Program-made: the position numbers and the translations under genes
Source of the DNA: Thermoanaerobaculia bacterium
GTDB taxonomy: Bacteria; Acidobacteriota; Thermoanaerobaculia; Multivoradales; JAGPDF01
DNA length: 32,840 nucleotides
Reading direction: 5' to 3'
Assembly (NCBI GenBank): GCA_018057705.1
Contig: JAGPDF010000051.1
Location: 1-32,840 of the forward strand
Notes under the pieces: model-generated
Database searches by the model: none
Seen by the model: only the letters and a program-made list of their open reading frames with translations
What the model was told of the DNA's origin: nothing
In this document: positions 7,699-23,602 of the stretch, piece by piece
Layout: each line of letters opens with the position of its first letter
Position numbering within the stretch: the first letter of the stretch is position 1

Positions 7699-7997
7699 GC
7701 CCGCCCGATCGGTAGCCAAGCGAGGCACGGCCGAACCTGATTTCCCCAGATTCAGAGGGCAGATCCGGCACCCTTTGCGCCGAGAGTTCGCACTTCCGAA
7801 GGGCGCCTGACCTGCCCCGCACGGGTGCTGGCCGCGACCCTGCCTCACTTCGTCCAGCGTCTACGTCACGCGTGCTTTCGACCCCGCCTTCCTCTTCGCC
7901 CGCGGTTTCGAGGAGGACGTCCCGGCGAGCTGTTCTGCGATCGTGCCCTGAGCAGGCAGGATGTCGTCTTTCGTTGCCGGATCCCGATTCCAGGGGC
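7699..7997. other. upstream region of the propeller gene, no gene seen
   Basis: This roughly 300-bp stretch lies between divergent genes. The open frame of the propeller protein extends back into it, but the codons before 7998 lack signal-peptide character. I see no RNA gene or hairpin here. Confidence 0.4.
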
Positions 7998-9386
7998 ATG
8001 AATCTCCCCATGCGCTCGACTCGACCCGACGCTGCCGCCCCCCGTCTCGGCCGCCTCGCGGTGCTCGCCGCGTTCACACTGCTCTGCGTGCTGGCGCTCG
8101 CTGGCGCGGCGCCGGCCCGCGCGCAGTTGTCGCCCCTCGGCGGGCAGTTCCAGGTCAACAGCTACACGACGGGCATTCAGTACCATCCGGCGGTCGCTGC
8201 GGACAGCGCGGGCAACTTCGTGATCGTCTGGACGAGTTTCGGCTCGACCGGGACGGACTCGAGCAACGCGAGCGTCCATGCGCGGCGCTGGGCCGCCGAC
8301 GGTACCGCACTCGGCGGACAGATCCAGGTCAACACCTACACCACGAGCACCCAGCGTTTTCCAGCGCTCGCCGCCGCCAGCGACGGCGCTTTCGTCGTCG
8401 TCTGGTCGAGCCTCGGTTCGAGCGGGACGGACACGAGCGACGCCAGCATCCAGGCGCAGCGCTATCTTTCCAACGGCATCGCCACCGGCGCCCAAGCCCA
8501 GGTCAACAGCTTCACGACGCTCGAGCAGGAGTTCCCGGCGGTGGCCGCGGACAGCGCGGGGAACTACGTCGTCGCCTGGGAGAGCACCGGATCGACCGGC
8601 ACGGACACGAGCGGCACGAGCATTCAGGCGCAGCGCTTCGCCGCCAACGGTGCCGCGCTGGGCGCGCAGTTCCAGGTCAATACCTACACGACAGGCGGGC
8701 AGCTCAATCCGCAGGTAGCCGTGGACGACGCCGGCAACTTCGTCGTCGTCTGGAACAGCTACGGCTCGGTCGGCACGGACGGCGACAGCGCGAGCATCCA
8801 GGGGCGTCTCTACGCTGCCAACGGCTCGGCGCTCGGCGGGCAGTTCCAGGTCAACAGCTATACGACGAGCGGACAGCGCTACCCGGCGGCGGCAGCGGAC
8901 GGCGAGGGCAACTTCGTCGTCGCCTGGGACAGCTTCGGCTCGAGCGGCTCGGACACCAGCAGCTTCAGCATCCAGGCGCAACGCTATGCCGCCGACGGAG
9001 CCGCGCTCGGCGCGCAGTTCCAGGTCAATACCTACACGACGAGTGCCCAGCGCTATCCGTCGTTGGCTGCGGATAGCACGGGCAACTTCGTCGTCGTCTG
9101 GCAGAGCCTGGGCTCGGGTGGCACCGATTCGGACGATGCGAGCATCCACGGACGGCGCTTCGCCGCGAGCGGCCTTCCAGTGGGAGGCGAAGCGCAGGTC
9201 AACAGCTTCACGACGGGCATCCAGGAGCTTCCGGTGGTGGCCTCGGCCGGCGCCGGCGACTTCGTGGTCGCGTGGACGAGCGTCGGCTCGGTCGGCACGG
9301 ATTCGAGCTACTCGAGCATCCAGGCGCAGCGCTTCGGCTGCGTCTTCTGTGATGGGTTCGAAGGCGGGGACACCGACCGCTGGTAG
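7998..9386 (+). CDS. exported seven-repeat propeller-like protein with C-terminal GFEGG motif
   Basis: The start at ATG 7998 gives a 462-residue protein with a long signal peptide (hydrophobic core about 21-38, likely cleavage near 'ARAQ'). The mature protein is seven tandem 58-residue units, each built like 'QVNxYTT-(Q)-x(5)-AADSxGNFVVVW-S-GS-GTD-ASIQAQRYAADG'. Such repeats, with one W and one GTD loop each, fit a seven-bladed beta-propeller, although the fold is inferred. The last unit runs into 'CDGFEGGDTDRW' and then stop. The function is unknown; secretion or surface display is likely. A distantly similar protein is encoded at 22364-23602. The repeats are also visible as a 174-bp DNA period. 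Confidence 0.88.
   Translation: MNLPMRSTRPDAAAPRLGRLAVLAAFTLLCVLALAGAAPARAQLSPLGGQFQVNSYTTGIQYHPAVAADSAGNFVIVWTSFGSTGTDSSNASVHARRWAADGTALGGQIQVNTYTTSTQRFPALAAASDGAFVVVWSSLGSSGTDTSDASIQAQRYLSNGIATGAQAQVNSFTTLEQEFPAVAADSAGNYVVAWESTGSTGTDTSGTSIQAQRFAANGAALGAQFQVNTYTTGGQLNPQVAVDDAGNFVVVWNSYGSVGTDGDSASIQGRLYAANGSALGGQFQVNSYTTSGQRYPAAAADGEGNFVVAWDSFGSSGSDTSSFSIQAQRYAADGAALGAQFQVNTYTTSAQRYPSLAADSTGNFVVVWQSLGSGGTDSDDASIHGRRFAASGLPVGGEAQVNSFTTGIQELPVVASAGAGDFVVAWTSVGSVGTDSSYSSIQAQRFGCVFCDGFEGGDTDRW
8137..9340 (+). repeat. seven 174-bp in-frame tandem repeats
   Basis: Each unit begins near a 'GGCGGGCAGTTCCAGGTCAA'-like segment and the next follows about 174 bp later. Copies differ at many synonymous and some loop positions, so this is an old protein-coding repeat rather than a recent DNA expansion. 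Confidence 0.85.
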
Positions 9387-12845: not shown

Positions 12846-13124
12846 GTGATCCGGTCGTATCGATGCCGCGACACCGAAGCGATGTTCGGCGGCACCCGGG
12901 TCGCGAGATTCGTCGCGATCGAAGCGGTGGCCATGCGCAAGCTGGCAATGTTGAATCAGGCCGGTCGCTTCGGCGATCTGCGAGTGCCACCCGGGAACCG
13001 GCTCGAGGCGTTGCGGGGCCAGCGTGCGGGGCAGCACAGCATCCGCGTGAACGACCAGTATCGCGTCTGCTTTCGCTGGACCGACGTGGGTCCGGAGGAC
13101 GTCGAGATCGTGGACTATCACTGA
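12846..13124 (+). CDS. higB: HigB-family toxin (RelE superfamily)
   Basis: The GTG at 12846 gives 92 residues, the standard length for HigB/PmsM-type 'plasmid maintenance killer' proteins, which cleave mRNA on the ribosome. Family landmarks are 'RKLAMLNQAG..GDLRVPPGNRLEALRG', 'HSIRVNDQYRVCFRW' and the C-terminal 'DVEIVDYH'. The longer open frame upstream is excluded because the promoter lies inside it. There is no ribosome binding site before the GTG, which agrees with leaderless translation. The antitoxin follows 11 bp downstream, the toxin-first order usual for higBA. It looks intact. Confidence 0.92.
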   Translation: MIRSYRCRDTEAMFGGTRVARFVAIEAVAMRKLAMLNQAGRFGDLRVPPGNRLEALRGQRAGQHSIRVNDQYRVCFRWTDVGPEDVEIVDYH

Positions 13125-13135
13125 AGGAGCGAACA

Positions 13136-13450
13136 ATGCGAAAGGTTCCCTATCCCTCTCCCGGCGAGATTCTCCTCGAAGAGTTCCTGAAGCCGATGGG
13201 AATCACGCAATACCGCCTCGCCAAGGAGATCGGTGTTCCGCAGCGCCGCATCGGCGAGATCGTTGCTGGCGCCCGCGCGATTACGCCCGACACCGGACTT
13301 CGCCTGTCGCGCTTCTTCGCGATGTCCGACGGATTCTGGATCGGCCTCCAGGCCGACTTCGACCGCGAGAAGGTCCGCGCAACGCTGGCCAAGACTCTCG
13401 CCCGCATCAAACCCTGGCCGGAGGCGGTGCGCGCCCGAAGGAGCGCATGA
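13136..13450 (+). CDS. higA: HigA-family antitoxin (HTH XRE)
   Basis: The 104-residue helix-turn-helix antitoxin starts at ATG 13136, with AAGGAG six bases upstream. The HTH core is 'MGITQYRLAKEIGVPQRRIGEIVAG' region (about residues 21-46, split here by description: MGITQYRLAKEIGVP then QRRIGEIVAG), followed by 'TPDTGLRLSRFFAMSDGFWI', diagnostic of HigA/VapI. It neutralises HigB and should repress the promoter at 12811-12839. The strong ribosome site for the antitoxin against a leaderless toxin would favour antitoxin excess. It is immediately followed by the tRNA-like relic and repA module. Confidence 0.93.
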   Translation: MRKVPYPSPGEILLEEFLKPMGITQYRLAKEIGVPQRRIGEIVAGARAITPDTGLRLSRFFAMSDGFWIGLQADFDREKVRATLAKTLARIKPWPEAVRARRSA

Positions 13451-13480: not shown

Positions 13481-13599
13481 CAACCCGTTGAAGCTCCGAG
13501 AAGCGTTGCGCCGGAAGGCGGCTCCGTCGGTCCAGGAGCCCGAAGGCGTCAATCTTTGCAGCAGAGTGAGATTCGAAAATGGTGGACCAAATCACTCTG

Positions 13600-13630
13600 A
13601 GTTCGAACACCCCAGGAAGTTCGAACACCC
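13600..13630 (+). promoter_or_regulatory. paired GTTCGAACACCC boxes in the repA leader, copy 1
   Basis: AGTTCGAACACCC occurs twice with an 18-bp period (13600-13612 and 13618-13630); each contains the palindrome GTTCGAAC. The pair is unchanged in copy 2 (20022-20052). They could be iterons or an initiator-binding operator. Confidence 0.5.
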
Positions 13631-13775
13631 TGATTTTCTGGCTTCGGGAGGTCGCGGCAATGAGGCAGGCGGCATGAGCTCCATGCCGGTGAAAGGCCTG
13701 TCTCCGGGTTCCGTACGCCGTCCCCGGAGGAGCCCGGCAGGGCGCCTCGCCGGGACCGGCGTCCCTCTCTGGCAT

Positions 13776-13792
13776 CCGCTGCAAGGCAGCGG
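13776..13792 (+). promoter_or_regulatory. stem-loop just before the repA ribosome binding site, copy 1
   Basis: CCGCTGC-AAG-GCAGCGG forms a perfect 7-bp stem. It ends three bases before the ribosome binding site GGAGGGG (13796-13802). In copy 2 the stem is identical while the loop is ACG, which suggests that the structure is kept. A second GC-rich inverted repeat lies about 25 bp upstream. Control of initiator translation is plausible. Confidence 0.55.
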
Positions 13793-13806
13793 AGCGGAGG
13801 GGCAAT

Positions 13807-14790
13807 ATGGCTGGAAAGACCGCTTGGAAGTCCGCGACCCCGCAGCTCTCGTTGGTCCTCCCTGGCGCCCCGGCGTCACAGTTTCATTCGACAGCTGTTG
13901 AGATCGGATCCCGCAAGGCCCGGCGCGCCGGCAGCCTGATCCGGCAGGCGCTCTACCTCGACCAGGAAGACGCCTACGCCGCCGGCGAGGTTGGCTTCCT
14001 GGCTCGGGCGCTCGTGCAGGCGACCCTTCCGCACAGCGATCCGAACGCCAACGAGTTCGTCCGGCGGAACGGACACTTCACCCTGTCCATCCTCGCCCCG
14101 AAAGACGTCGGGCTGCCGTACGGCCGGTATCCACGCCTGGTTCTCGCCTACCTCACGACCGAGGCGGTGCGCCGCAAGAGCCCGGACATCGAGCTCGGCG
14201 GCCACTTCTCGCACTTCTGTGCTGCCCTCGGGATCCCGCCGACCACGGGACCGCGTGGCTCCTTGCCGCTGCTCCGCGACCAACTCCAGCGTCTCTTCGC
14301 CTCGACCTTCCAGTGCATCTTCCACGACGAGAGCCAGGGGAGACATGCTGGCGATGGCTTCCTGATTGCCGAGAAGCGGGAGCTCTGGTGGGATTCCCGG
14401 CCAGGGAAGGACGAGGCCGCATGGGGATCTCACGTCGTCCTTTCGGACCGCTTCTATCGGGAGGCAACTGAAGCGCCGGTCCCACTGGACTTGCGGGTCC
14501 TGCGCGCCCTGCGGTCGCCGTTCGAGATCGACATCTACGTCTGGCTGACCTGGCGCTTCTTCCGGCTGCGGAGGCCGGTCACCATCCCATGGGCCTCGCT
14601 GGCGCTCCAGTTCGGGTGCGGCTACGCCAACCCCCGACACTTCAAGAAGCGGTTCCTCGGCTACCTCAAGAGCGTCATCGACTACTACCCGGAGGTGAGG
14701 CTCGAGAGCTCAGGGACGGGGCTGGTGCTCAAGCCCTCGCCGACGCACATCGCGCGACGTCTCGGCGCTCGAAGGAAGTCCATGCCCTGA
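13807..14790 (+). CDS. RepA_C-type plasmid replication initiator-like protein, copy 1
   Basis: This 327-residue protein resembles the 'plasmid encoded RepA' family found on proteobacterial plasmids. Landmarks are 'YPRLVLAYLTTEAVRRKSPDIELG', read in parts as RLVLAYLTTEAVR and SPDIELG, then 'LRDQLQRLFASTFQC', 'LRALRSPFEIDIYVWLTWR', 'FFRLRRPVTIPWASLALQFG' and 'HFKKRFLGYLKSVIDYYPE' (about residues 240-300). Such proteins bind an origin and start replication. It is about 93% identical to the protein at 20229, with many silent third-base differences, so both copies have been under selection. The ribosome site GGAGGGG lies five bases before the ATG. The C-terminal tail after 'SPTHI' differs between copies. 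No partition gene or origin is recognised nearby. Confidence 0.8.
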   Translation: MAGKTAWKSATPQLSLVLPGAPASQFHSTAVEIGSRKARRAGSLIRQALYLDQEDAYAAGEVGFLARALVQATLPHSDPNANEFVRRNGHFTLSILAPKDVGLPYGRYPRLVLAYLTTEAVRRKSPDIELGGHFSHFCAALGIPPTTGPRGSLPLLRDQLQRLFASTFQCIFHDESQGRHAGDGFLIAEKRELWWDSRPGKDEAAWGSHVVLSDRFYREATEAPVPLDLRVLRALRSPFEIDIYVWLTWRFFRLRRPVTIPWASLALQFGCGYANPRHFKKRFLGYLKSVIDYYPEVRLESSGTGLVLKPSPTHIARRLGARRKSMP

Positions 14791-15585: not shown

Positions 15586-15736
15586 ACCCCTCGACGAGGC
15601 GGAAGTGCTCCACGCCGAGGGTCGCAAGCACCGACGCCACGGGCTGAATCCCCTTACTGGAAGCTTCTTTTTCGACAAGACGTCACCCGCTGCCGTGCCA
15701 ATCACTGACAACGACCGTTTCTCAGCAGCCTGCTAG
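14985..15736 (+). mobile_element. IS5-family element, right part only
   Basis: The element runs from the truncated transposase to a terminal sequence TTTCTCAGCAGCCTGCTAG (15718-15736), typical of this IS group's inverted repeat. The matching left end is not found. It ends in CTAG, a YTAR-like target often used by IS5 relatives. The region 15586-15717 is non-coding IS tail. Confidence 0.65.
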
Positions 15737-16899
15737 GGTTCGGTGGCAGACCACCTCGCCGTATTCCCTGCCTCGAATCCATTCCAGAACACGGGGATCT
15801 TCAGGTTCCAATCCTGGAGCGGATTTATTCTTACGATTGCAGGTGACGTTAGTCTGTAGGCTTGTGCGGAAACAGGCGGGTCGAAGAGATGAAGTAAATG
15901 GATTGCGACGCTGCACTCTCCTAGGGCGCTGGGATCCTGTGTTTCGAGGACTAGTACTCTTAGGTCGTAGGACTCCGTGCACGGAACAATCTCGATCTGA
16001 ATGGCATGATCGTCGTTGGTTGGCGATCCTCCAACAACTCGATTCTCTCCGGTCCTCGACATCTTCACCATGTTCACGTCATCTGCGGAGAGATCAAATC
16101 GAACCTGGCCTCTTCTGGATGGGGTCTCCATCGTAGCGACCGTACCTGGGTATCCTAGGCCGAGCGGGTAGGTCGTGACTCCGTAGTTCGCGTTAGCGGG
16201 CCATGTACTCCCAGAGGTCGAAAGGTTGCTCAGCGAATAGGTGTACGTGGCGGAGCTGATGACAGTTGCATCGACGATGGCGGGATTGTTATCCGCGATC
16301 CGATACCAGAAGGTATTGGTTACTACATCAGGGTCCACGGCGTCTTGAAAATCGTCCTTCGATCCGCGGATCTCGTCGGCCCCGTCGAACATGAGCTGAC
16401 GCGATGCTCCGTAGGAAATCGTCCAAGACATGTACTGGCGTGGCGGGGGAGGCGTCAGTGGGAGGGGAGGACGGATGATGATAGTCGTGTGCCCGAGGCC
16501 CATCGCGCAGTGACCCAACTCATGCAAGACTGTGCTCGCCGCGTTGAAAGTCCCCACCGTCGGAGGCGGAACCTCATACTGCTCGCAGGAAAAGCAATTC
16601 TCCGTCGTCGGAACTAGAGCGCTCCATTTCGCTGCAGCCCACTCAACCATCTCTGGCAGACGGCCGCCAAAGTCAGGATCAACGCAGACCCTCACATTCG
16701 TAGAGCCATTGGGGTTATACGTTGAGGGGTAGACAATGCCGTCATCGTTGATAATGAAGGTCGGATGATCCTCAGGATGACCGGGTTCGCATCCGTCAGC
16801 CAGGGAGCACTTGACAGTTCTCAAGAACGTACCGGCGAAGACCAGATTGGATGAGAGAACTCCCGCGATTCCGAGCACAATCGTAGGCAGGCGATTCAC
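15733..16899 (-). CDS. secreted metzincin-type zinc metalloprotease-like protein
   Basis: The 388-residue protein begins with a signal peptide (1-22, cleavage near 'VFA-GT'). It contains HELGHCAMGLGH at 126-137, the HExxHxxGxxH zinc site of metzincins, with Glu127 as the catalytic base. A CxxC-rich stretch (NCFSCEQ, 101-107) precedes it. The region after 160 is beta-rich. The C terminus 'VFWNGFEAGNTARWS' shares the GFE-G-T--W motif with two other exported proteins here. The stop codon lies within the end of the IS5 relic, so the last few codons may be altered. A&T-richer than its neighbours. It is coupled to the upstream gene by an ATGA overlap. Confidence 0.8.
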   Translation of the reverse strand: MNRLPTIVLGIAGVLSSNLVFAGTFLRTVKCSLADGCEPGHPEDHPTFIINDDGIVYPSTYNPNGSTNVRVCVDPDFGGRLPEMVEWAAAKWSALVPTTENCFSCEQYEVPPPTVGTFNAASTVLHELGHCAMGLGHTTIIIRPPLPLTPPPPRQYMSWTISYGASRQLMFDGADEIRGSKDDFQDAVDPDVVTNTFWYRIADNNPAIVDATVISSATYTYSLSNLSTSGSTWPANANYGVTTYPLGLGYPGTVATMETPSRRGQVRFDLSADDVNMVKMSRTGENRVVGGSPTNDDHAIQIEIVPCTESYDLRVLVLETQDPSALGECSVAIHLLHLFDPPVSAQAYRLTSPAIVRINPLQDWNLKIPVFWNGFEAGNTARWSATEP

Positions 16900-19906: not shown

Positions 19907-21174
19907 CACCCCGTTGAAGCAATGGGAGTTGCTCCGGAAGGCGGCTCCAACGGGTCAAGAGCCTCGAAGCGTAAGCCTTTGCAGCAGAATGGGATAAGAA
20001 ATGGTGGACCAAATCACTCTGAGTTCGAACACCCCAGGAAGTTCGAACACCCTGATTTTCTGGCTTCGGGAGGTCGCGGCAATGAGGCAGGCGGCATGAC
20101 GTCGATGCCGGTGAAAGGCCTGTCTCTGGGTTCCGTACGCCGTCTCCGGAGGAGCCCCGCAGGGCGCCTCGCCGGGGCCGGCGTCCCTCTCTGGTATCCG
20201 CTGCACGGCAGCGGAGCGGAGGGGCAGTATGCATGGAAAGACCGCTTGGAAGTCCGCGACCCCGCAGCTCTCGTTGGTCCTCCCTGGCGCTCCGGCGTCA
20301 CAGTTTCATTCTACAGTTGTTGAGTCGAGATCCCGCAAGCCCAGGCGCGCCGGCAGCCTGATCCGGCAGGCGCTCTACCTCGACCAAGAGGACGCCTACG
20401 CCGCCGGCGAGGTCGGGTTCCTGGCCCGAGCGCTGGTGCAGGCAACCCTTCCGCACAGCGACCCCAAGGCCAACGAGTTCGTCCGGCGGAACGGACACTT
20501 CACGCTGTCCATTCTTGCCCCGAAGGACGTCGGGCTGCCGTACGGCCGGTATCCGCGCCTGGTCCTCGCCTACCTCACGACCGAGGCGGTGCGCCGCAAG
20601 AGCCCCGACATCGAGCTCGGCAGCCACTTCTCGCACTTCTGTGCCACCCTCGGGATCCCGCCGACCACCGGTCCGCGTGGATCCTTGCCGCAGCTCCGCG
20701 ACCAGCTCCAGCGTCTCTTCGCCTCGACCTTCCAGTGCATCTTCCACGACGAGAGTCAGGGCCGTCATGCGGGCGACGGCTTTCTGATCGCCGAGAAGCG
20801 GGAGCTTTGGTGGGACCCGCGGCCGAGGAAGGGCGCAGCAGCGTGGGGGTCTCACGTCGTCCTCTCGGACCGGTTCTATCGGGAGGCGACCGAAGCGCCG
20901 GTCCCGCTCGACTTGCGCGTCCTTCGCGCCCTCCGGTCGCCGTTCGAGATCGACATCTATGTCTGGCTGACCTGGCGCTTCTTCCGGCTCCGTCGTCCGG
21001 TCACGATCCCCTGGGCCTCGCTGGCGCTCCAGTTCGGATCCAGGTACACGAACCCGCGGCACTTCAAGAAGCGGTTCCTCGGCTACCTGAAGTGCGTCAT
21101 CGACTACTACCCGGAGGTGAGGCTCGAGAGCACAGCGGTGGGGCTGATGCTCAAGCCGTCGCCGACCCACATCG
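19889..21174 (+). repeat. repA module copy 2
   Basis: Second copy of the segment at 13464-14752, offset 6422 bp. It includes the link motif (19967-20008), paired GTTCGAACACCC boxes (20022-20052), leader stem-loop (20198-20214) and repA. It has an additional 7-bp inverted repeat CCCGTTG/CAACGGG at 19910-19954 that copy 1 has lost. Confidence 0.9.
20198..20214 (+). promoter_or_regulatory. stem-loop before the repA ribosome binding site, copy 2
   Basis: CCGCTGC-ACG-GCAGCGG, with the same 7-bp stem as copy 1 and a changed loop, directly before GGAGGGG. Confidence 0.5.
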
Positions 21175-21230
21175 AGCAGAGGCCGGGCAAGCGACAAAAT
21201 CTGCAGCTGGGCGGAGCCCCTCCGGCTTAG
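20229..21230 (+). CDS. RepA_C-type plasmid replication initiator-like protein, copy 2
   Basis: The 333-residue protein is a close paralog of the one at 13807, with roughly 20 differences in the shared 310 residues. These cluster in the N-terminal 40, in 'WWDPRPRKGAAAW' and near 'FGSRYTN'. The same family landmarks are present (LAYLTTEAVR, LRDQLQRLFASTFQC, RSPFEIDIYVWLTWR, KKRFLGYLKCVIDYYPE). The ribosome site GGAGGGG precedes the ATG. Its C-terminal tail after 'SPTHIEQR' is unrelated to copy 1, showing where the duplicated segment ends. It is adjacent to the VapBC pair on the opposite strand, as copy 1 is adjacent to the VapBC remnant. Replication activity is not shown. Confidence 0.8.
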   Translation: MHGKTAWKSATPQLSLVLPGAPASQFHSTVVESRSRKPRRAGSLIRQALYLDQEDAYAAGEVGFLARALVQATLPHSDPKANEFVRRNGHFTLSILAPKDVGLPYGRYPRLVLAYLTTEAVRRKSPDIELGSHFSHFCATLGIPPTTGPRGSLPQLRDQLQRLFASTFQCIFHDESQGRHAGDGFLIAEKRELWWDPRPRKGAAAWGSHVVLSDRFYREATEAPVPLDLRVLRALRSPFEIDIYVWLTWRFFRLRRPVTIPWASLALQFGSRYTNPRHFKKRFLGYLKCVIDYYPEVRLESTAVGLMLKPSPTHIEQRPGKRQNLQLGGAPPA

Positions 21231-21293: not shown

Positions 21294-22337
21294 ATGACCT
21301 CGATGCGGCCAGGGCCCTCGAGTGGCGAGATCCTGCGTGCGTCCGTGGCGGGCATCACGCTGACGCTCGGTCTAGGCGTGCCTGCGCCGGCGGTGTCAAT
21401 TTCTGCGGGCGCTTCGGTCGAGTGCCCCACGGCGCTGGCACGCGCTCAGATCGACGCGGTCGGCGCCGCGACTTTCGCCTGGCTCACGGACCTGACCTCG
21501 GGGGCGCACGCCGGTACGCATCGAAGCTTCGAGCCTATCTGCCCCGACTCGCCACCACTCGACCTGACACGCATTCCGCCAATCAGCGGCCATATTCTCG
21601 CCCTCCTTATCGTTCCGGACTACATCGAGGCGGTGCCCCTCGACGACCCGTGGGGAAACCCCTACGAGTACCGCCTGAACGTCGCCGACCCGCTATCCGC
21701 CGACGTCATCGCCATCCGCAGCGCCGGCTCGGACGGTGTGTACGAGGGCACCACCTACGACGTCCGCTCGACCGCCGGACCGGCGGATGATCTCGTCTTC
21801 TACAACGACGCGTGGGTTCTCGACCTCCCGCGTCTAGACCCTGTCTCGCGGCAGCGAACGACGGTGGCGAGGGTGCGGGACGTTGGGGACGCCCTTTTCT
21901 CCTGGATCATCGACAACGTGTCGGGCCTCTCCATGGTTCCGTCGAACCTGTCCGAATATGCCGGATCGACTCTCGACATGGCGAACTACACACCGGTCAC
22001 CGTCGATGAGGTGACCGACCACCTAACAACGCCGCCGTGGATCTACACGCGCTGTGTCCCGAAGTTCGACGCGTGGGATAACCCCATCGAGTACCGCCTG
22101 AACGAAAACCTGCTCGGGTTCCACGTAGCCGCGATCCGAAGTCTCGGCTCGGACGCCACCGCCGAAGGCGACATCTACGACGTGGGAATATTCCCCGCCG
22201 ACGAACGCCACCGCGACATCGTCTGGGCCGACGGCTTTATGGCACGAGAGCCGGACCAAAGCGGTCTGGAAATCTTCCTCGATAGCTTTGAGAGCGGCGC
22301 TCTCTGGGGCTACTGGAGCTGTGGCCCGGGTTACTAG
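21294..22337 (+). CDS. exported protein with two pseudopilin-C-terminal-like repeats
   Basis: This encodes 347 residues. An N-terminal hydrophobic segment (about 16-38) is probably a signal peptide. Two homologous halves follow, about 50-176 and 188-313. Each has a helix (AQIDAVGAATFAWL / VARVRDVGDALFSWI), then 'DPWGNPYEYRLN' or 'DAWDNPIEYRLN', then 'AIRSAGSDG' or 'AIRSLGSDA' and 'YDV'. The W-NP-Y/IEY and 'SxGxDG' pattern resembles the globular part of GspG-type major pseudopilins, without the pilin N-terminal helix. The C terminus 'EIFLDSFESGALWGYWS' is a variant of the GFE-G-T--W motif seen in two other proteins here. Function unknown, probably secreted or surface exposed. Confidence 0.75.
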   Translation: MTSMRPGPSSGEILRASVAGITLTLGLGVPAPAVSISAGASVECPTALARAQIDAVGAATFAWLTDLTSGAHAGTHRSFEPICPDSPPLDLTRIPPISGHILALLIVPDYIEAVPLDDPWGNPYEYRLNVADPLSADVIAIRSAGSDGVYEGTTYDVRSTAGPADDLVFYNDAWVLDLPRLDPVSRQRTTVARVRDVGDALFSWIIDNVSGLSMVPSNLSEYAGSTLDMANYTPVTVDEVTDHLTTPPWIYTRCVPKFDAWDNPIEYRLNENLLGFHVAAIRSLGSDATAEGDIYDVGIFPADERHRDIVWADGFMAREPDQSGLEIFLDSFESGALWGYWSCGPGY

Positions 22338-22363: not shown

Positions 22364-23602
22364 CTACCGTCTTCCCGGCTTCAACTTTCGAGCGCGGATT
22401 TCCGGGAGGGCGTCCTGGTTTGGGTCCCACTCCCACTGCCAAACGACGATGCACGCTCCAGACGTAGCACACGCCGCGGCGGGCTGGGACAGGCCAGAGG
22501 GGACCGGCTCATTGACCTGAAGAGGTGGCGAAAGCGGCCAGAGATCCGGGGAGAAGTGCCGTGCTCGAATCGCCCAATTCGAGTCCTCAAGCTGGATCGG
22601 ATCGAGTCCCTCCCAGACAATCAGGAAGCGACCGGAGCTCGCCGCCGCGGTCGAGCCACCCGAAGCGAAAACCGGCGGTAGCTCCTCGACAGGTTCGAAC
22701 GGAACGACTCGGACGGGATCACCGGCGAGATTGCCGTTTCCATCGACCTCGCGAGCGAAGATGCCGCGCTCGGCGCCCATTCTGCCGGTCCAGATCACAG
22801 TGTATCCGCCGCCACCGCTGCGACTCGCATCGGTACAGCCCTGCTGGCCTTCGGCAGAGTTGAGAACGATGTCGCCCGAGAGCGGCTCGCCGTTTCGGAG
22901 GAATGCTCGAGCCTGGGCGCCTGCGGCGAGTTGGCCCCCCAGATTCGTGCTCCAACAGACCAGGAAACTGCCATCGCGTTGCATCGCCACTCGTGCGAGT
23001 CGGGCATCCCCCTCCGCATGGACCTGGAAGTTCGACCCGAGAGGAGCGCCGTTACGGTCGAACCGCCGCGCCACCACGGAAGCGGGATCGGGCGACCAGA
23101 CCACAACGAAACCGCCGCGATCGTCCATGTCGACGACGGGCATCTGCTCCTGGGCACCGGGAGGGAGTTCGATCGTCGAGCTGACAACGAACGGCGGGCC
23201 TTGCAGATTTCCAAAGCGATCGAATCGACGGGCGAGCACTCTGAGCCTGGCGCTCCCCTGGCCTTCGGCGACGTTTGCCGCCCAGACTGCGACGAACTGA
23301 CCCCGATCGTTGGAGGCGATCTGCAACCAGGCGGCAAACTGGTTCGCGTCTTCGCTCAGCAGAAAGGCCGGACCACGCGAATCTCCCCGCGCCGAATACA
23401 CACGCGCATAGGCGGCGCGCACGACCCATCCCACCGCGAAATCTCCGTTCGCCGAGATCGCGACCTCAGGCGAACTGCCAGTCGGGCTGACCACGAACTC
23501 GGGTTCCAGCGTGGGCGCGGCGGCCACCGCCGACGAAGCCCAGGCGCCAGCTAGTACCAGCGCCCCTACCCGCAGCCTGCAGGCTCTCATCACGTTTGCC
23601 AT
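22364..23602 (-). CDS. exported repeat protein, propeller-like
   Basis: The 412-residue protein has a signal peptide (core about 13-26, 'AVAAA'). It contains repeated segments such as 'SANGDFAVGWV', 'NDRGQFVAVWAA', 'DDRGGFVVVWSP', 'QRDGSFLVCWST' and 'SSGRFLIVWEG', separated by 'ARRFDRNGAPLG'-type strands. This is the same W-centred repeat style as the protein at 7998-9386, but with more divergent units and no C-terminal GFE motif. It is probably a beta-propeller, secreted or in the outer envelope. The start could be ATG 23602 or ATG 23590; neither has a clear ribosome site. It is convergent with the pseudopilin-like gene 26 bp away. Confidence 0.75.
   Translation of the reverse strand: MANVMRACRLRVGALVLAGAWASSAVAAAPTLEPEFVVSPTGSSPEVAISANGDFAVGWVVRAAYARVYSARGDSRGPAFLLSEDANQFAAWLQIASNDRGQFVAVWAANVAEGQGSARLRVLARRFDRFGNLQGPPFVVSSTIELPPGAQEQMPVVDMDDRGGFVVVWSPDPASVVARRFDRNGAPLGSNFQVHAEGDARLARVAMQRDGSFLVCWSTNLGGQLAAGAQARAFLRNGEPLSGDIVLNSAEGQQGCTDASRSGGGGYTVIWTGRMGAERGIFAREVDGNGNLAGDPVRVVPFEPVEELPPVFASGGSTAAASSGRFLIVWEGLDPIQLEDSNWAIRARHFSPDLWPLSPPLQVNEPVPSGLSQPAAACATSGACIVVWQWEWDPNQDALPEIRARKLKPGRR

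Follow-up and report, generated by a model that had tools for sequence, protein, structure and literature searches.

A short terminal tag of exported Acidobacteriota proteins and its proposed docking to a strand-deficient jelly-roll-like protein

Introduction

Dockerins are folded calcium-binding domains of about 60 residues that are bound by complete cohesins. In chaperone-usher donor-strand complementation, an incomplete beta-sandwich gains its missing strand from another polypeptide, which donates a terminal extension of 10-20 residues (PMC3960871). The MYXO-CTERM/myxosortase, GlyGly-CTERM/rhombosortase and PEP-CTERM/exosortase systems use tripartite tags (a motif, a transmembrane helix and a basic cytoplasmic cluster), which are processed by a membrane enzyme (PMC11980579, PMC3237569, PMC1569441); sortase-like systems require the membrane helix and the basic tail (PMC11980579).

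We consider here a tag with the consensus hFxDGFESGxTxxWSxxxP-stop (the position after ESG is typically D or N), which closes three proteins in a window, i.e., the whole stretch of 32,840 nucleotides analysed, from contig C51 of a 5.08-Mb draft genome (96% complete). The tripartite signal of the PEP-CTERM, GlyGly-CTERM, MYXO-CTERM or LPXTG kind is absent: the C-terminal copies have neither a hydrophobic helix nor a basic cluster. A search of the literature on jelly-roll strand donation, on the class to which the genome belongs and on C-terminal sorting returned known systems only.

Results

The initial annotation described a common ending of three exported proteins with unrelated bodies, and all three C termini read as it gave them (Table 1). 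VFC-DGFEGGDTDRW and a stop close a repeat/propeller-like protein (D codon at 9351, stop 9384-9386), IPVFW-NGFEAGNTARWSATEP and a stop close a metzincin-like protein on the minus strand (stop 15733-15735), and IFL-DSFESGALWGYWSCGPGY and a stop close a T2SSG-like protein (D codon at 22281, stop 22335-22337). The bodies are unrelated indeed, the second containing the metzincin motif HExxHxxGxxH and the third matching PF08334. Translation of the first protein likely starts about 40 codons into the ORF, at the ATG of MNLPMRSTRPDAAAP, and a signal peptide follows. The AlphaFold model of this propeller protein computed without an alignment (mean pLDDT 38) was disregarded.

Table 1. Tagged proteins of the window and their tags
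Feature	Position	Strand	Basis
Tag VFCDGFEGGDTDRW and stop, Cys-flanked variant, on repeat/propeller-like exported protein	9342..9386	+	sequence reading
ORF, repeat (propeller-like) exported protein	7872..9386	+	no Pfam match above cut-off
Tag IPVFWNGFEAGNTARWSATEP and stop on metzincin-like protein	15733..15798	-	tag profile, E 2.1e-10
ORF, exported metzincin-like protein (HELGHCAMGLGH)	15733..16899	-	direct reading; no Pfam match
Tag IFLDSFESGALWGYWSCGPGY and stop on T2SSG-like protein	22272..22337	+	sequence reading
ORF, exported protein, two GspG C-terminal-domain-like repeats by eye	21294..22337	+	PF08334, E 4.6e-6 for one repeat

Some other features of the window can be listed. The 21294-22337 protein apparently has no pseudopilin N-terminal helix despite its GspG C-terminal-domain-like repeats. 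The stretch 22364-23602 encodes a second exported repeat/propeller-like protein, which resembles the 7872-9386 one in style and is without the tag. Near-identical segments (96% over 300 nt) are found at 13577-13876 and 19999-20298, 6.4 kb apart; both run into ORFs of the plasmid RepA_C type (13807-14790 and 20229-21230; PF04796, E 1e-32 each), and the metzincin and other genes sit between these two RepA_C-linked copies. At 12863-13450, a HigA-like antitoxin ORF follows a HigB-like stretch, judged by eye only.

The tag is abundant in the source genome. Searched as DNA patterns, D-[GS]-F-E-x-G matches 75 sites genome-wide (2 when reversed) and F-x-D-G-F-E-x-G matches 82 (none when reversed), and a 21-column tag profile has at least 150 matches (best E 1.6e-11). 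Out of the 75 matches, 62 are C-terminal (D to stop within 40 aa), seven stand at the mature N terminus right after the signal peptide (L010, L016, L038, L043, L049, L060, L066), two precede a shortened copy of the jelly-roll-like domain described below (L039, L044), and four are noise. Signal-peptide-like N termini, called by a crude home-made rule, are present in 31 of 45 tagged versus 46 of 168 untagged ORFs (p = 5e-7). The short conserved tag on unrelated secreted proteins that the initial annotation described is borne out, with a strong enrichment at C termini. Its remark that no named system is known for the ending also agrees with our searches: neither Pfam nor NCBIfam contains a family above cut-off for the tag, and the papers searched do not mention it (DGFESG occurs in none of them, and variant strings occur only in unrelated peptides).

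A broader collection of 71 C-terminal tags shows no variation at F and E of DGFE and very little at D, G and W, and in 42 of them the distance from D to the stop is exactly 16 residues. The codons differ between copies (GAG or GAA, all four Gly codons, varying third positions), and no conservation was seen in the 120 bases 3' of the stop in these 71 cases. We conclude that selection acts on the peptide, since the codons vary and the downstream DNA is unconserved; the same two facts rule out a mobile DNA repeat as the source of the common 3' end.

We mapped the tag over 111 class genomes that are at least 90% complete, scoring it by a strict DNA pattern; the reversed-pattern controls are near zero across them. 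The counts are bimodal: 4 to 142 in 39 genomes, 2 in two, and 0 or 1 in 70, the tag-negative status of most genomes being that given by the strict pattern and most genomes being drafts. One order is tag-rich apart from its large genus g4 (20 genomes), which is without the tag, and family f10 is split, with the tag in a part of it only. The C-terminal form is identical in genomes of many families. In the phylum outside the class, the tag is essentially absent according to the F-x-D-G-F-E-x-G pattern. Carriers of a strict codon version are mostly Acidobacteriota, one Thermoanaerobaculia among them; the underlying scan used one narrow codon pattern, and other phyla may hold the tag too. From these carriers, we assign the source genome to Acidobacteriota and most likely to the class Thermoanaerobaculia.

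Some proteins (L091, L095, L096) contain a domain of roughly 200 residues that begins with the tag motif. In multi-domain proteins, where the domain is often in tandem, its beginning is the motif or a sequence closely resembling it; for example, a full domain in alignment A4 starts with FSDGFESGDLSAWDVTDTGGG-ALSVQSSAALEGTYGLEA. The domain also exists as stand-alone secreted copies, read in 34 class genomes and in two from outside the class, where the next segment directly follows the signal peptide and the motif is absent. An example is AFA-QNSLDVNADAAIVGNFGLEV, and the typical beginning is (A/Q)N(S/T)L.V...AA..G..(F/Y)GLEV. In hhalign, the stand-alone profile aligns to columns 22-204 of the full domain (probability 100), i.e., the first 21 columns or so are missing. 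The tag, in turn, stops a few residues past its W, exactly at the point where the stand-alone protein starts. The truncations are complementary, and since the end of the one matches the start of the other, we consider the tag and the stand-alone protein (in the source genome, the gene at G000:C81:18899-19501) as two halves of one domain, the tag matching in sequence what would be its first strand, strand A.

As for the fold, neither Pfam nor NCBIfam has anything above cut-off for the full or the strand-less domain beyond a weak PF14099 similarity. This polysaccharide lyase family matches 6 of 19 domain members at E below 0.1 (best 3e-4), and PDB 2zzj matches the full domain marginally (E 0.033). 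This weak similarity suggests a jelly roll in which the tag would be the first strand. For a Saprospiraceae domain that starts in the same way, the AlphaFold model without an alignment (mean pLDDT 33) was disregarded, and its sole PDB matches, the designed Pizza propellers, were judged spurious.

Two variations of the domain were noticed. In tag-poor genera g215 and g217 of the tag-rich order (G411, G412, G415, G416), there are 7-11 domain copies, several of them at the C terminus of proteins of about 600 residues; the whole C-terminal domain in these four genomes is possibly a covalent alternative to the tag. In L096 (with L110, at G416:C9), an insert after the tag splits the domain and resembles the NCBIfam GCX_COOH family (3-coathanger stack; E 0.004, below cut-off), and L092 (G412:C35) shows a similar gap in its profile match.

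Full domains that start with the tag sequence indicate a common origin of the two, and it could be supposed that the tag is a vestige, left by repeated truncation of a complete jelly-roll domain or by a neutral repeat that spreads via gene ends. Against this, F and E are invariant and D, G and W near-invariant in 71 proteins with varied codons, the downstream DNA is unconserved while the length to the stop has a preferred value, and the tag is kept by many families within one order and by a part of another family. We regard a vestige as most improbable, because this conservation pattern points to purifying selection on the peptide.

The domain was then compared with the tag across the class using a profile free of the motif (A2, then A3). 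It is present in 36 of the 39 tag-positive versus 4 of the 70 tag-negative genomes (p = 8e-21, a value that ignores phylogeny); the counts of domain and tag by genus are 26/2/2/31, which again ignore phylogeny. The strand-less protein is typically encoded once per tag-bearing genome. As to the exceptions, G200 and G144 are tag-negative by the strict pattern and contain the strand-less gene, and the profile finds a C-terminal tag in each; G444, also tag-negative, has only the full domain; tag-rich genomes without a detected receptor are G407, G417 and G440, which are drafts with completeness of 91-94%.

The enzymes covered by this comparison were exosortase and sortase. Exosortase (PF09721) does not track the tag, being found in 30 of 39 tag-positive versus 42 of 70 tag-negative genomes (p = 0.09), and neither does sortase (PF04203; 17 of 39 versus 27 of 70, p = 0.69); G413 and G414 are tag-rich without exosortase. 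No processing enzyme is thus indicated among these two in the class genomes. The phylogenetic profiling that the initial annotation proposed as a search for a co-occurring enzyme did yield a clear partner, which is the domain, and left exosortase and sortase unassociated.

These figures bear on the possibility of a classical sorting or processing signal, recognised by a dedicated membrane enzyme of the sortase, exosortase, rhombosortase or myxosortase type, which would cleave it and attach the protein. A short C-terminal tag on exported proteins, many to one per genome and bimodal across genomes, is what such a signal would look like; however, the motif has no transmembrane helix or basic tail and typically ends 16 residues after its D, 7 of the 75 copies occupy mature N termini, and the two enzymes are distributed as described. 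We find this explanation very unlikely. Of the sorting or anchoring signal suggested by the initial annotation, the sorting part in the usual enzyme-read sense is not supported, and anchoring by strand donation fits better, because the co-distributed partner, secreted and jelly-roll-like, is short of precisely the strand that would come from the tag.

Some genomes combine the two halves in operons. In G198, the single strong domain match in the phylum sample outside the class, the strand-less gene is immediately preceded by a gene that overlaps it by ATGA and whose product has the tag as its mature N terminus; in the congener G372, an N-terminally tagged gene has the same position with a 9-nt gap. 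The directly upstream gene is also tagged in G405 and G406, where it looks subtilisin-like by eye, and in G432 and G433 (a metalloprotease), while that of G420 has a looser match, which makes six to seven lineages in all; in 30 of 37 distinct receptor loci, the directly upstream gene is without the tag. Sulfatase-like genes recur near the strand-less gene (13 of the 20 loci L167-L186), a large family whose recurrence may be unspecific.

In G372, a single polypeptide comprises a metalloprotease and the complete domain. The counterpart in G433, a homologue with 42% identity (E 4e-110), terminates behind the tag; 39 nt further downstream begins the strand-less domain, which has a signal peptide of its own. 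Such a pair, fused in one genome and encoded by neighbouring genes in another, is conventionally used as an argument for physical interaction.

Several strand-less proteins continue into other domains: SLH in G432 and G406 (PF00395, E 8.6e-17 and 4.7e-12), with the G405 protein resembling that of G406 by eye, and a dockerin in G144 (PF00404, E 9e-7). Most receptors end with the domain and have no recognisable anchor domain, so that surface attachment is suggested for some lineages only.

The tag could also be an outer-membrane secretion signal (for type II or another, unknown system), which the stand-alone jelly-roll protein would read as a secretion adaptor or periplasmic chaperone. This partner is exported and near-universal in tag-bearing genomes, reading by strand addition would be similar to that by pilus chaperones, and one tagged protein of the window resembles GspG C-terminal domains. 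But SLH and dockerin on some partners suit an extracellular anchor better than a chaperone, and in the full-domain fusions the strand is permanently bound. This reading seems to us unlikely.

Discussion

Considering that the tag matches the strand missing from a separate secreted protein, docking by fold completion is probable. We believe that the tag probably donates strand A to a shared strand-less receptor in a manner similar to donor-strand complementation. The tag would be an orphan strand A of the jelly-roll-like domain of about 200 residues, carried by dozens to more than 100 exported proteins per genome, mostly at the C terminus and sometimes at the mature N terminus. Outside the inner membrane, these proteins would insert the tag into the open edge of the receptor, which would complete the receptor fold and give a tight, non-covalent attachment. 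The strand-less protein would serve as a shared receptor or hub, and those with SLH or dockerin would attach their clients to the surface of the cell or to a larger assembly. From the sequences we infer the jelly-roll fold, the physical binding, its stoichiometry, the assembly site and the purpose, which we presume to be surface retention. One receptor serving more than 100 clients would have to be abundant.

In broader terms, we lean towards a many-to-one, enzyme-free attachment system of Acidobacteriota, in which exported proteins have built-in donor strands for a single strand-deficient jelly-roll hub; the hub would have split from (or been fused into) a protease-jelly-roll protein and be anchored via SLH or dockerin in some lineages. 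Attachment of protein to protein outside the cell by this route is apparently undescribed, and we could identify no known family to which the system belongs.

If this is true, a principle of attachment or display exists that requires neither an enzyme nor a membrane anchor in the client and derives from one split domain. It would account for the cohesion of a large exported proteome in these Acidobacteriota and provide a shared function for at least a hundred "hypothetical" proteins per genome. The tag would also be a natural split-protein tag of about 16-20 residues, apparently tolerant of either terminus, for use in surface display and protein assembly.

Among the known systems, the PF14099 lyases (glucuronan lyase, PDB 2zzj) share with the domain a weak similarity that includes a G-x-L-x-x-W segment; the scores are only the marginal ones given above (E 3e-4 and 0.033), and nothing indicates lyase activity. 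The CTERM systems are similar in that dozens of unrelated exported proteins per genome share a single short C-terminal tag, which is paired with one partner, whereas the tag considered here lacks the helix and basic tail, is N-terminal in some proteins and has a secreted beta-domain protein as its partner. With cohesin and dockerin it shares the docking of many secreted proteins on a common scaffold through a terminal module, and the scaffold here sometimes has SLH or dockerin itself; unlike a dockerin, the tag has about 16-20 residues and would be a part of its partner's own fold.

Donor-strand complementation is similar in that an incomplete beta-sandwich receives a short terminal strand from another protein, which is here proposed from sequence. 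In the chaperone-usher pathway, pilins, chaperone and usher are the partners, with an Ig-like pilin that lacks strand G as the acceptor, whereas here the proposed acceptor is jelly-roll-like and lacks strand A, and the donors would be many unrelated exported proteins with a mostly C-terminal strand; pilin families are not found among the Pfam matches of the domain members. By analogy, the tag system is one that would work like donor-strand complementation and is not a member of that system.
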